Source of the DNA: Acidobacteriota bacterium
Lineage (GTDB): Bacteria; Acidobacteriota; Vicinamibacteria; Vicinamibacterales; JAFNAJ01
Reading direction: 5' to 3'
Length of the DNA stretch: 41,362 bases
Assembly: GCA_023384575.1 (NCBI GenBank)
Contig: JAHDVP010000008.1
Location: 63,977-105,338, forward strand
Below the pieces are notes generated by a model. The model worked only from the letters and a program-made list of their open reading frames with translations. It made no database searches and was not told the origin of the DNA. This document shows positions 34,530-38,116 of the stretch, one piece after another (within the stretch, counting starts at the first letter, position 1; each line of letters begins with the position of its first letter). Position numbers and translations under genes: made by a program.

Positions 34530-34549
34530 GCCGTCGTGCCCCCGCAGAC

Positions 34550-34558
34550 TGCTACAAT
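34550..34558 (+). promoter_or_regulatory. Extended -10 promoter of the SET gene
   Basis: TGC-TACAAT (34550-34558) is a clean extended -10 element 20 nt after the HDOD stop and 67 nt before the SET-protein start. No -35 box is visible, which is tolerated with the TGn extension. It suggests the SET gene is transcribed independently of the HDOD pair. Confidence 0.45.
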
Positions 34559-34625
34559 CGACGCGCGCGGCACAGGACCGAATGGCGGTACCCGCAGCCG
34601 GAGACCGACACGCGACCAACACAGC

Positions 34626-35108
34626 ATGGCGAAGGCGGAGCACCCCAAGACCCCGGCGCGTCAGGCGCGCCAGCCACTCACGACCTCGAACGGGACGCCG
34701 ACGATCCAGTTGCCGCGCGTGAGGAAGCGTCGCTCACGATTGCACGGCCTCGGCGTGTTCGCGCTCGAGGACATCCCGAAGAACAAGCGGGTCATCGTCT
34801 ACGCCGGCGAGCGGATTACGACGGGGGAGAGTTCGAAGCGCGAGGCGCGCTACCTCCGCCACGGGCACATCTGGTGCTTCCGCGTGAACCGGCGGTGGGC
34901 GGTCGACGGCGCGGTCAACGGCAACGATGCGCGCTACATCAACCACTCGTGCACGCCGAACTGCTACTCGCAGATCATCGACGGGGTGATCTGGATTCGC
35001 GCCGCGAAGAACATCGCCGCCGGTGACGAACTGACCTACAACTACTACACGGAGGGGACGGGCCACATCCAGTGCCGGTGCCGGCCCGGGTGCAGGAACC
35101 GGCTCTGA
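34626..35108 (+). CDS. SET-domain lysine methyltransferase with post-SET zinc motif
   Basis: This 160-residue protein is a minimal eukaryote-type SET domain. It has RSRLHGLGVFALEDIPKNKR (SET-N), YAGERIT, the SAM-binding pseudoknot RYINHSCTPNCYSQ (N106-H-S-C109), catalytic Tyr in ELTYNYY (Y138/Y140), and a post-SET tail C150-R-C152-RPG-C156, which with C109 would bind zinc. The family transfers methyl groups from SAM to protein lysines. The first 30 residues are basic, with many Lys, Arg and Gln, and could bind DNA or be a self-methylation site. Substrate unknown; chromatin-like or ribosomal proteins are candidates. No clear ribosome site at ATG 34626. It precedes the hydrolase gene by 3 nt. 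Confidence 0.88.
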   Translation: MAKAEHPKTPARQARQPLTTSNGTPTIQLPRVRKRRSRLHGLGVFALEDIPKNKRVIVYAGERITTGESSKREARYLRHGHIWCFRVNRRWAVDGAVNGNDARYINHSCTPNCYSQIIDGVIWIRAAKNIAAGDELTYNYYTEGTGHIQCRCRPGCRNRL

Positions 35109-35111
35109 CCG

Positions 35112-35798
35112 ATGCACGTGCTCTACCTGCACGGCTTCGCCTCGTCGCCGCAGTCGTCGAAGGCGGCGTTCTTCGAGTCGCGGCTCGCTGCGCACGGGGG
35201 AGCCTGGTCGTGCCCCGACCTGAACGCGCCCGAGTTCGCGACGCTCACGGCCAGCCGCATGATCGGTCAGGCCGAGGGGCACCTCCGTGCGCTACCCGAC
35301 GGTCCGGTGGCCCTCGTCGGATCGAGCCTGGGCGGCTTCGTCGCCTGGCACGTCGCGGCGCGCGCCGAAGGCGCGGCACGCGAAGGTCGTGCCGGCCTTC
35401 GACCGGTCGATCGCCTGGTACTGCTCGCCCCGGCCCTGGACTTCGGCCGCGCCGACATGCACGACATCGGCGAGGACGGCCTCGACGAGTGGCGGCGAAC
35501 GGGGTGGCGCGAGTTCTTCCACTATGCGTACGAGCAGCCTCGACTGGTGCACTACGAGCTGTACCGCGACGCGCAGCGCTACGACTCGTTCTTCTCGCCG
35601 GTGCGGGCGCCGACCCTCGTCGTTCAGGGTCGTCGCGACGACGTCGTCGATCCGGCCATGGTCGAACGTTTCGCGGCCGGCCGGCCGAACGTGACCCTGC
35701 ACCTCGTCGACGATGACCACCAGTTGAAGGCGAGCCTCGAGGGGATGTGGGACCGGATCGCAAGCTTCCTCGGCCTCGATCGACCGCGTCGGGGCTGA
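35112..35798 (+). CDS. YqiA/YcfP-like alpha/beta hydrolase (esterase)
   Basis: This 228-residue alpha/beta hydrolase starts at once with the core strand MHVLYLHGFASSPQSSKA, whose HGF loop forms the oxyanion region. The nucleophile is S72 in LVGSSLGGFVAWH. The acid is in VVQGRRDDVVDPAM and the catalytic His in LVDDDHQLKASLE near the C-terminus. It resembles the UPF0227/YqiA esterases, larger by some 30 residues because of a cap-like insert (DIGEDGLDEWRRTGWREFFH). Substrate unknown. It is 3 nt after the SET gene and overlaps the start of the next gene, so it is part of a compact cluster. Confidence 0.85.
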   Translation: MHVLYLHGFASSPQSSKAAFFESRLAAHGGAWSCPDLNAPEFATLTASRMIGQAEGHLRALPDGPVALVGSSLGGFVAWHVAARAEGAAREGRAGLRPVDRLVLLAPALDFGRADMHDIGEDGLDEWRRTGWREFFHYAYEQPRLVHYELYRDAQRYDSFFSPVRAPTLVVQGRRDDVVDPAMVERFAAGRPNVTLHLVDDDHQLKASLEGMWDRIASFLGLDRPRRG

Positions 35799-38116
35799 TC
35801 GCCACGAGGGTCGCCGGGGCGCTGGCCACAATCGCGGCGATGGGTGCCGTGCTCGCGGGTGGGGCCGCTGCAGCCGGCTGCCGGAGCTCGCCGACTCCGG
35901 ACGACGCCGCGACCGTGACATCGCCCCCGCCGGCGACGGTCGCGCCCGACGCACCCGGTTCCCGCGGCCCCCACGAGACCGCTCCCGGACCTTCTGGTGA
36001 TCGGGAAGCGGCGACGGCCCTCGCCTCGGCTGGCGTGGCGTGGGTGGTCGTGGACGCCGCGTCCGGGGCCATCGTGTCGGCCGAGCGGGCCGACGTCCTC
36101 GACCGGCCCGTGCTGCCGGGCTCGCTCGCGAAGATCGTGACGCTCGCGGCGGCGGTCGACGCAGGCCTCGTCGACGACGCGACGCGGTTGACGTGCGCCC
36201 GGCGCGTGCGCGTCGAGGGCACGACGCTCGACTGCGCGCACGCGGCCTGGGCCGCGCCCGCTGCCGCCAGTACGGCGCTCGCCGATTCGTGCAACAGCTT
36301 CTTCGTGACTTTGGCGACCCGGTTACCGCCGGCCGCTCACGCGTCAGCGGCGCGCGCGTTGGGCCTGCCGGCGCCCCCGCCCGCCGACGATCTGCGCCTG
36401 GCCGCGGTCGGACTCGGCGGAGCAGGCGTCCCTCCACGGCGTTGGATCGATGTGCTGCAGCTCGTCACACGCGCCGAACCGGTAGCTGGCGTCTCGAACC
36501 ACGCGCGTGCCATCGTCGCGGAGGGTCTTCGCGAGGCGGCGCGCTCCGGCACGGCGGCGGCGTTCGGACGCTACGGGGTCGACGCGCTGGCGAAGACCGC
36601 GACGACCCGTACCGCTGCCGGCGGTCCGGTTGGCCTCGTCGCGGCCGCGTGGCCCGCGAGTCGTCTACGCTACGCCCTCGTGCTCGCCGTCGCGGGCGGT
36701 GCCGGTCGAGATGCCGCCGAGCGCGCCGCGAGCCTCGCCGCGAACGTCACGAGCGGTCGGGCGACGGTGGCGACGGGGTTGGCCCGGCGCCCGGGCCCGG
36801 CGCTTCGCGTGGGCCGGGTCCGCGGCCGTGACCACGCGGTCGAGTCGATGCCGCTCGAAGACTACGTCGCCGGCGTCGTGGCCGCCGAGGCCCCGCCCGG
36901 CGCGCCGCGGGCCCTGCTCGATGCGCTGGCCATCATGGCCCGGACGTATGCGTGGGGCCATCGCGGACGCCACCACGACGAGGGCTTCGACGTGTGCGAC
37001 CTGACGCACTGCCAGGCACTCGGGCGGCCAACCGCGGCATCGACGGCCGCCGCGGCCCGCACCCGTCACGCCGTGTTGCTCGAGCGCGGCGAGGTGGCCG
37101 AGGTGTACTACACGGCCGACTGCGGGGGGACGCGGGCGAGCCCCGGCGAGGTCTGGCCGGCGAGCCGCGCGCGGGACGGGGCGGCTGGACCCGATCCCGT
37201 GTCTCACCCGTCTCCGGAGTGGACCTCCGACGTGAGCCTGCCCCGGCTCCACGAGGCCCTGCTCCATGCGGGCTGGCGGGGCGACCGGTTGGTGGACGTG
37301 AGGGTCGTGGCGAGGTCGGCCTCCGGGCGCGTCCTGCGCGTGGGGCTCGACGGGCTGACGCCGCGCGTCGTCGACGGAGAGGCCTTCAGGCTGGCGGTCG
37401 GGCGGTCGCTCGGGTGGCACGTCCTCAAGAGCGCCGCGTTCGAGGCGAGTCCGACGGCCGCCGGCGTGCGGTTCACCGGCCGAGGTCGTGGTCACGGCGT
37501 CGGCCTGTGCGTCGCGGGAGCCGGTGCGCTCGCCGCGACAACAGCCGACGTCCGGACGGTTCTCGCTGCCTATTTTCCCTCGCTCGACGTCGGGCCGCTG
37601 CTCGACGTGACGCTCGACCTCCCGCTGGCGGTGGAGGACGAACGCGCGCGCCTGAGAGCGTTCGTGCTGACCACCGTCCGCCGGCTCGCCGCCCTGATTG
37701 ACGTCGAGCCGCCATGGACGATCGCCGTGCGCGTGCATCCCACCGTGGGCAGCTTCGAACGCGCGACCGGCATGCCGTGGTGGTCGGCGGGCACGGTCAT
37801 CGACGGGCGTGTCGAGTTGCTCCCGCTGGATGCGCTCGCCGGCCGACGCCAGGTCGAGCGCACCCTTCGACACGAGCTCGTCCACGCGCTCACGGTCGAG
37901 GGCTTCGCGGGACGCCCGCGCTGGGTGCACGAGGGGGCGGCCTCCTACTACGCCGCCGCGCTCGGTGGCGAGACCATCGTGGCGGCGCCTGCGGACGCGT
38001 CATGCCCGACTGACGCCGACTTCTCCAGCGCGCGAACCGCAGCGGCCATGGCCGTGCTCCACCACCGTGCCGCCGCCTGCTACGCGCGCGATCATGGGGT
38101 CAGGTCTCGACCCTGA
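35747..38116 (+). CDS. Fusion: penicillin-binding-like + SpoIID/LytB + HExxH peptidase
   Basis: This 789-residue envelope protein has an N-terminal signal or lipoprotein-type segment (ALATIAAMGAVLAGGAAAAG then C). Residues about 95-340 look like a penicillin-binding transpeptidase: S126-L-A-K129, S181-C-N183 and K283-T-A in the right order and spacing, with KTA replacing KTG. Residues about 345-600 are a SpoIID/LytB domain: MPLEDYVAGVVAAEAPPGAP, IMARTYAWGHRGRH, HCQALGR and GRGRGHGVGLC. SpoIID is a lytic transglycosylase for bare glycan strands. The C-terminus has H709-E-L-V-H713 and VHEGAASYY (E729), a gluzincin zinc site. It probably remodels peptidoglycan. The GTG start at 35747 overlaps the hydrolase by 52 nt; an internal ATG at 35840 is possible. 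Confidence 0.82.
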   Translation: MGPDRKLPRPRSTASGLIATRVAGALATIAAMGAVLAGGAAAAGCRSSPTPDDAATVTSPPPATVAPDAPGSRGPHETAPGPSGDREAATALASAGVAWVVVDAASGAIVSAERADVLDRPVLPGSLAKIVTLAAAVDAGLVDDATRLTCARRVRVEGTTLDCAHAAWAAPAAASTALADSCNSFFVTLATRLPPAAHASAARALGLPAPPPADDLRLAAVGLGGAGVPPRRWIDVLQLVTRAEPVAGVSNHARAIVAEGLREAARSGTAAAFGRYGVDALAKTATTRTAAGGPVGLVAAAWPASRLRYALVLAVAGGAGRDAAERAASLAANVTSGRATVATGLARRPGPALRVGRVRGRDHAVESMPLEDYVAGVVAAEAPPGAPRALLDALAIMARTYAWGHRGRHHDEGFDVCDLTHCQALGRPTAASTAAAARTRHAVLLERGEVAEVYYTADCGGTRASPGEVWPASRARDGAAGPDPVSHPSPEWTSDVSLPRLHEALLHAGWRGDRLVDVRVVARSASGRVLRVGLDGLTPRVVDGEAFRLAVGRSLGWHVLKSAAFEASPTAAGVRFTGRGRGHGVGLCVAGAGALAATTADVRTVLAAYFPSLDVGPLLDVTLDLPLAVEDERARLRAFVLTTVRRLAALIDVEPPWTIAVRVHPTVGSFERATGMPWWSAGTVIDGRVELLPLDALAGRRQVERTLRHELVHALTVEGFAGRPRWVHEGAASYYAAALGGETIVAAPADASCPTDADFSSARTAAAMAVLHHRAAACYARDHGVRSRP

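Follow-up and report, generated by a model that had tools for sequence, protein, structure and literature searches.

What does a bacterium do with a protein in which a penicillin-binding fold, a glycan-cleaving SpoIID domain and a zinc metallopeptidase-like domain are joined in one chain? The question is raised by a 789-amino-acid (aa) protein encoded in a stretch of 41,362 nucleotides (nt) from a Vicinamibacterales member of the Acidobacteriota (assembly GCA_023384575.1, contig JAHDVP010000008.1, positions 63,977 to 105,338; this whole stretch is hereafter called the window), in which an initial annotation had seen a possible new kind of peptidoglycan-remodelling enzyme. Our analysis confirms that a penicillin-binding protein (PBP) transpeptidase (TP), a SpoIID and an M1-like gluzincin domain are combined in this protein. 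On balance, we consider it probable that in this protein a relative of YfaQ of Escherichia coli has been kept intact and that it serves as the peptidoglycan-editing arm of a yfa/mag-type alpha-2-macroglobulin (A2M) envelope-defence system.

The domains proposed by the initial annotation are borne out by Pfam and NCBIfam scores, predicted folds and motifs, which agree. The AlphaFold model of the protein, for which 28 homologues were used, has a mean predicted local distance difference test (pLDDT) score of 85.7 and shows a low-confidence or disordered linker (residues 39-94) followed by three compact domains. The first of these matches Pfam Transpeptidase PF00905 at residues 99-209 with 43.4 bits (cut-off 22.1) and adopts the PBP fold that had been expected of it, its model aligning with 4r3j_B over 246 residues at 3.2 Å (VIA Z 28.0); the SxxK, SxN and KT(A) motifs are present as had been described (Table 1). 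The closest structures are those of class B PBPs (PBP2, PBP3, SpoVD), with which the domain shares the TP fold and, apart from the KTA of the window protein, the SxxK/SxN/KTG motifs; unlike them, it lacks a dimerisation/pedestal domain, measures about 245 residues and is joined to SpoIID and gluzincin domains. For the second domain, Pfam SpoIID (PF08486) scores 64.8 bits at residues 363-444 (cut-off 23) and NCBIfam SpoIID_LytB (TIGR02669) 110.8 bits at residues 364-614 (cut-off 83.3), and the model matches 5i1t with a Foldseek E-value of 4.5e-13 and a TM score (by target) of 0.76. In SpoIID of Clostridioides difficile, the catalytic glutamate is E101 and the zinc site consists of H134, C140, H145 and C146, to which H409, C417, H421 and C422 of the window protein correspond; activity in vitro is lost when E101, C140 or H145 is mutated (PMC6221140). 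With the SpoIID/LytB lytic transglycosylases of Bacillus, C. difficile and Chlamydiales the domain has in common its fold, the catalytic Glu, the zinc ligands and the GHG motif; in those enzymes, however, it is separate from any TP or peptidase domain and is paired with the amidase SpoIIP (or with chlamydial amidases), not with an A2M. The third domain, modelled alone, reached a pLDDT of 92.2, and its best matches are the catalytic domains of M1 aminopeptidases (Z 11.8, 158 residues, 4.2 Å). Since this fold match comes with weak Foldseek E-values (best 0.03), the domain is, going by its model, a remote member of the gluzincins. It stays under all Pfam cut-offs (Peptidase_MA_2 PF13485, 11.5 versus 32.4 bits, E=0.25; PF04450, 11.6 versus 23.8 bits).

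This combination of domains is not a chance one: across 44 homologues, which come from several phyla and were either fused or joined from adjacent genes, its motifs do not vary or hardly vary; a contig scan with the single protein gave no match, and an alignment was needed to find the homologues. Neither the SxxK serine nor the HExxH motif, whose loss the initial annotation had named as speaking against its reading, was lost in any of the 44 homologues holding the respective domain. Its caution about the KTA variant was a fair one: KTA replaces KTG in the window protein, one of the 44, and additionally in locus L019, and is a rare local change, an exception to the KTG of the family. When the order to which the window genome belongs was searched, 144 of 162 genomes gave matches, and many families had full-length three-domain proteins. 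TP, SpoIID and gluzincin are encoded by three separate, overlapping genes in Candidatus Stahlbacteria (L128) and in a Myxococcales metagenome-assembled genome (L137), Archangium (L127, L129) has a TP-SpoIID fusion and a separate gluzincin gene, and Terriglobia (11 loci) have a TP gene followed by a SpoIID-gluzincin fusion; full fusions are found in Blastocatellia (seven loci), and all three domains are fully fused in Vicinamibacterales. Because fusion recurs in these different combinations, there is strong evidence that the three parts work together. As for the proposal of a new kind of enzyme, what stands is the presence of three domains with conserved catalytic residues; what does not is the isolation of the protein, since the architecture is an old and recurrent module, tied to A2M and homologous to E. 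coli YfaQ, and not a novelty of one lineage.

The tie to A2M is seen first in gene order. The gene preceding the Stahlbacteria module encodes an A2M (MG2, A2M, bait-region, TED and bMG10 domains), and with a profile built from it A2Ms were found flanking about 38 module loci. They adjoin the module in Vicinamibacterales, Terriglobia, Blastocatellia, Stahlbacteria and Archangium, often together with a DUF1175 (YfaT) gene and, in Archangium, with a DUF2135 (YfaP-type) gene beside the module; the thioester motif CxEQ is present in every A2M copy long enough to cover the site. The distance between module and A2M is 4.2-8.3 kilobases (kb) in 21 related genomes. In the window genome, the sole MG2 match is a thioester A2M (1569 aa, CTEQ; G000:C8:128537-133246, minus strand), preceded by a DUF1175 (YfaT) gene (E=1.8e-49) whose end runs 4 nt into the A2M gene. 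In the order (162 genomes), 35 genomes hold both the TP-bearing gene and this A2M, 3 the gene only, 1 the A2M only and 123 neither, the TP-bearing class including genes cut by contig ends; another type of A2M (~2000 aa) shows no positive association with the TP-bearing gene (2/36/28/96). This A2M is found in 28 of 31 genomes with the TP-bearing form and in none of 43 with only TP-less homologues (Fisher p 2e-17), a value that is indicative only, as the genomes are related and about ten of the TP-less ones were classed by alignment coverage alone. Of 297 genomes sampled across the phylum, 40 have DUF1175; outside family f36, all 21 genomes with DUF1175 hold the TP and SpoIID module, which in 20 lies on one contig with DUF1175, mostly at ~4-12 kb from it (30 kb in the window genome).

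A tree of the SpoIID domain shows in addition that the TP domain was lost at least six times (in G078, G079, G081 and G048, in the f3 clade and in the f12 clade, which lacks HExxH), with TP remnants remaining in G078 and G048 (L091 and L092). The genomes with TP loss are all without this A2M except G016 and G019, which also hold a three-domain copy. Seven TP-less genes are still located behind the same SET-domain gene as the module, and TP loss therefore happened in place in several loci. The idea that all TP-less genes are paralogues had to be modified, as SET-gene synteny puts several of them at the same locus and G016 and G019 hold both forms. G076 has kept the three-domain gene and, some 4 kb off, no more than a truncated DUF1175, and the absence of A2M there looks like a recent loss. 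These patterns bear on the alternative that the protein is a housekeeping remodelling enzyme, used for example in division or outer-membrane assembly, and that its linkage to A2M is incidental to gene order and common descent. In non-sporulating bacteria, SpoIID homologues take part in cell division (PMC6635528), TP-less copies do persist without A2M, and related genomes are not independent samples; yet the A2M linkage recurs across phyla in differing gene orders and fusions, the repeated TP losses fall in A2M-less genomes, and the other A2M type is unassociated. We regard a purely housekeeping role as improbable. As a separate observation, members of the f12 clade (12 loci, in A2M-less genomes) have kept SpoIID and lost both TP and HExxH; these proteins are probably remnants that no longer act as peptidases but have retained a function at the wall.

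In three loci, from Spirochaetia (L146), Goldiibacteriota (L149) and an unclassified genome (L150), the gene order is A2M - PBP1C - SpoIID, the PBP1C having Transgly, Transpeptidase and BiPBP_C domains. An A2M with PBP1c constitutes the published type I pair (PMC5764988). The module resembles this pair, as represented by yfhM-pbpC of E. coli, in that a thioester A2M is coupled to a penicillin-binding transpeptidase domain, and differs from it in that the TP is minimal, without glycosyltransferase, and joined to SpoIID and gluzincin, and in that its A2M has DUF1175 for a neighbour, like that of the yfa operon. The same slot beside A2M is thus filled either by a peptidoglycan synthase or by a minimal TP, and the fact that a synthase can occupy it speaks for a TP domain at work on the wall and against one that acts as a sensor. 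A sensor of the BlaR1/MecR1 kind, in which the TP would sense beta-lactams or stem peptides and the metallopeptidase would pass the signal on, would likewise unite a penicillin-binding fold and a zinc peptidase in one protein, and the KTA of the window protein could favour binding over turnover. However, the peptidase of BlaR1/MecR1 is an N-terminal M56 membrane peptidase, whereas that of the window protein is a C-terminal, presumably secreted M1-like domain, so that the domain order is opposite; Pfam gives the window protein no M56 match, and BlaR1 does not involve SpoIID. A sensory function is in our view very improbable.

In E. coli, the operon yfaA-yfaT-yfaS-yfaQ-yfaP consists of DUF2138, DUF1175, A2M, DUF2300 and DUF2135 genes. 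YfaQ adjoins A2M (YfaS), DUF1175 (YfaT) and DUF2135 (YfaP), as the module adjoins A2M and DUF1175 elsewhere, and besides DUF2300 it matches SpoIID weakly (E 7e-6). When a YfaQ profile (E. coli and Citrobacter) was compared with the module family by hhalign, all three domains aligned collinearly (probability score 97.9, E 3.6e-13); taken by domain, the E-values were 1e-7 for TP, 7e-10 for SpoIID and a weak 5e-4 for the gluzincin, in the HExxH region only, and the controls YfaA, YfaT and YfaP were negative. GSLWK, a SpoIID core with its Glu and HEYLH..E at the same spacing are common to YfaQ and the family. YfaQ is under the threshold of Pfam PF00905, and the window protein has no match to PF10062 (DUF2300) at E up to 1. 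Judged from these sequence comparisons, YfaQ looks like a partly decayed relative of the intact three-domain enzyme. Genes of ~500 aa near the module (498 aa in Stahlbacteria; L133, L143 and L144) were also tested as homologues of YfaA/DUF2138, which was not supported.

The mag operon of Pseudomonas aeruginosa protects against the wall-targeting type VI secretion system (T6SS) effectors VgrG3 and Tae1 by an unexplained mechanism (PMC12663445). Loss of magE lowers the amount of MagD and leads to the appearance of unprocessed forms, and for MagE a chaperone or signal-peptide role has been proposed and a cytoplasmic location reported (PMC5764988). The main rival of our interpretation, in which the gluzincin acts directly on A2M, takes up this phenotype: the protein would be an A2M maturation factor whose gluzincin processes, folds or releases A2M, SpoIID and TP being anchors or binders of peptidoglycan and wall catalysis being secondary. 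The co-occurrence of the TP-bearing form with A2M is consistent with such a role, as is the retention of HExxH and the third Glu in YfaQ though KTG and GHG are gone. A mere anchor, however, needs neither the catalytic and zinc residues of SpoIID nor the TP triad, which are invariant in the 44 members; several TP-less genes keep HExxH in genomes without A2M, and the reported cytoplasmic location of MagE also speaks against it. Maturation of A2M as the principal function thus seems rather unlikely to us.

For the peptidoglycan-editing arm that we favour, we infer location, enzyme steps and physical interaction as follows. The window protein is presumably secreted or membrane-anchored and periplasmic. 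SpoIID would cut glycan strands that are damaged or stripped of peptides, and the TP would join or trim stem peptides, whereby the wall would be resealed there; in some members, that of the window with its KTA included, the TP could be mainly a stem-peptide binder. The gluzincin would trim peptides or process proteins on site, perhaps A2M itself, and the thioester A2M would trap incoming proteases at the same place. The defence role would be carried over from the published P. aeruginosa mag work, and by analogy an arm of this kind would fit the protection by mag against peptidoglycan-targeting T6SS toxins (PMC12663445).

Several observations weigh against this interpretation. The KTG motif of the window protein itself reads KTA, and the A2M of the window genome, on the same contig, lies ~30 kb downstream of the gene and is not adjacent to it. 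No A2M was detected in G075, G076 and G083, which have a three-domain gene, and the gene is missing from G131, which has the A2M. The 19 f36 genomes with DUF1175 gave no strong match to the full module profile; the single f36 genome inspected has a gluzincin and SpoIID fusion with reversed domain order (L161:926-2656, minus strand) beside A2M and DUF1175, and Pfam did not bear out a TP domain considered at this locus in a 296-aa open reading frame containing KTGT. In YfaQ, SCG stands for SxN and KTW for KTG, and SpoIID has lost its second half, GHG included, so that catalysis is not kept everywhere. By gene order only, MagE should be the counterpart of YfaQ. It could also be, as a more tentative extension, that both kinds of bacterial A2M system are built around a transpeptidase (PBP1C or minimal TP) and a SpoIID glycan-cutting domain, and are combined devices for trapping attackers and mending the wall when the envelope is attacked by enzymes, with YfaQ/MagE as the decayed remnant of a wall-mending enzyme.

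Table 1. Features of the three-domain gene and its upstream neighbours, in window coordinates
Feature	Position	Strand	Evidence and conservation
SET-domain gene, upstream	34536..35108	+	neighbour kept in 26 loci; marks syntenic locus
UPF0227/YqiA-like esterase gene, directly upstream	35112..35798	+	neighbour kept in 9 homologous loci
TP-SpoIID-gluzincin protein gene	35747..38116	+	single open frame, GTG start, stop at 38116, 789 aa
Predicted N-terminal helix, residues 14-38 (signal or signal anchor)	35786..35860	+	AlphaFold secondary structure; sequence
Transpeptidase (PBP) domain, residues 95-336	36029..36754	+	Pfam PF00905; structure match
SxxK motif, S126-L-A-K129	36122..36133	+	Ser 44/44, Lys 43/44 homologues
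SxN motif, S181-C-N183	36287..36295	+	44/44 homologues
KTG position, KTA in window (K283-T-A285)	36593..36601	+	KT 44/44, Gly 43/44
SpoIID domain, residues 352-617	36800..37597	+	TIGR02669 above cut-off; Foldseek
SpoIID catalytic glutamate E381	36887..36889	+	44/44; aligns with E101 of C. difficile SpoIID
Zinc-site residues H409, C417, H421, C422	36971..37012	+	C417, H421, C422 44/44; H409 43/44
SpoIID GHG motif (G582-H-G584)	37490..37498	+	44/44
Gluzincin (MA clan) domain, residues 618-785	37598..38101	+	separate model; M1 aminopeptidase matches
HExxH motif, H709-E-L-V-H713	37871..37885	+	41/41 where domain present
Third zinc ligand E729, 16 residues past second His	37931..37933	+	41/41; spacing equals YfaQ HEYLH..E

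At the locus itself, a GAGGGG stretch lies immediately 5' of the start codon, and the first 52 nt of the gene are shared with the end of the upstream gene; the SET-domain gene and the YqiA/UPF0227-like esterase gene form a conserved neighbourhood upstream of the module. In PADLOC, neither the window protein nor its A2M nor the DUF1175 gene had a match. The window genome (L002, G000:C27) and G155 (L072) each hold a second SpoIID gene, which has neither TP nor gluzincin and sits on a long branch of the tree. Membrane proteins without Pfam match are encoded between A2M and module in Blastocatellia (L106:4927-5784) and Terriglobia (L110:8099-8860) and are possible membrane partners; a kinship of the two families was not supported (probability 22%).

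The name DUF2300 was found in no paper of the literature searched, which left most subscription journals outside, and SpoIID, penicillin-binding and macroglobulin appeared together there only in an unrelated proteomics study. The A2M operon and the single domains were already known; in that literature we found no account of which domains make up YfaQ, of the intact form with three domains, of the fusion series or of its co-inheritance with thioester A2M.

To our knowledge, there is no agreed function for the yfa/mag-type bacterial A2Ms. Domains have now been assigned to YfaQ, and the probable descent of the DUF2300 protein from a transpeptidase-SpoIID-metallopeptidase enzyme provides a concrete, testable link between a protease trap and peptidoglycan, which suggests that the immune-like A2M system may also repair or edit the cell wall.

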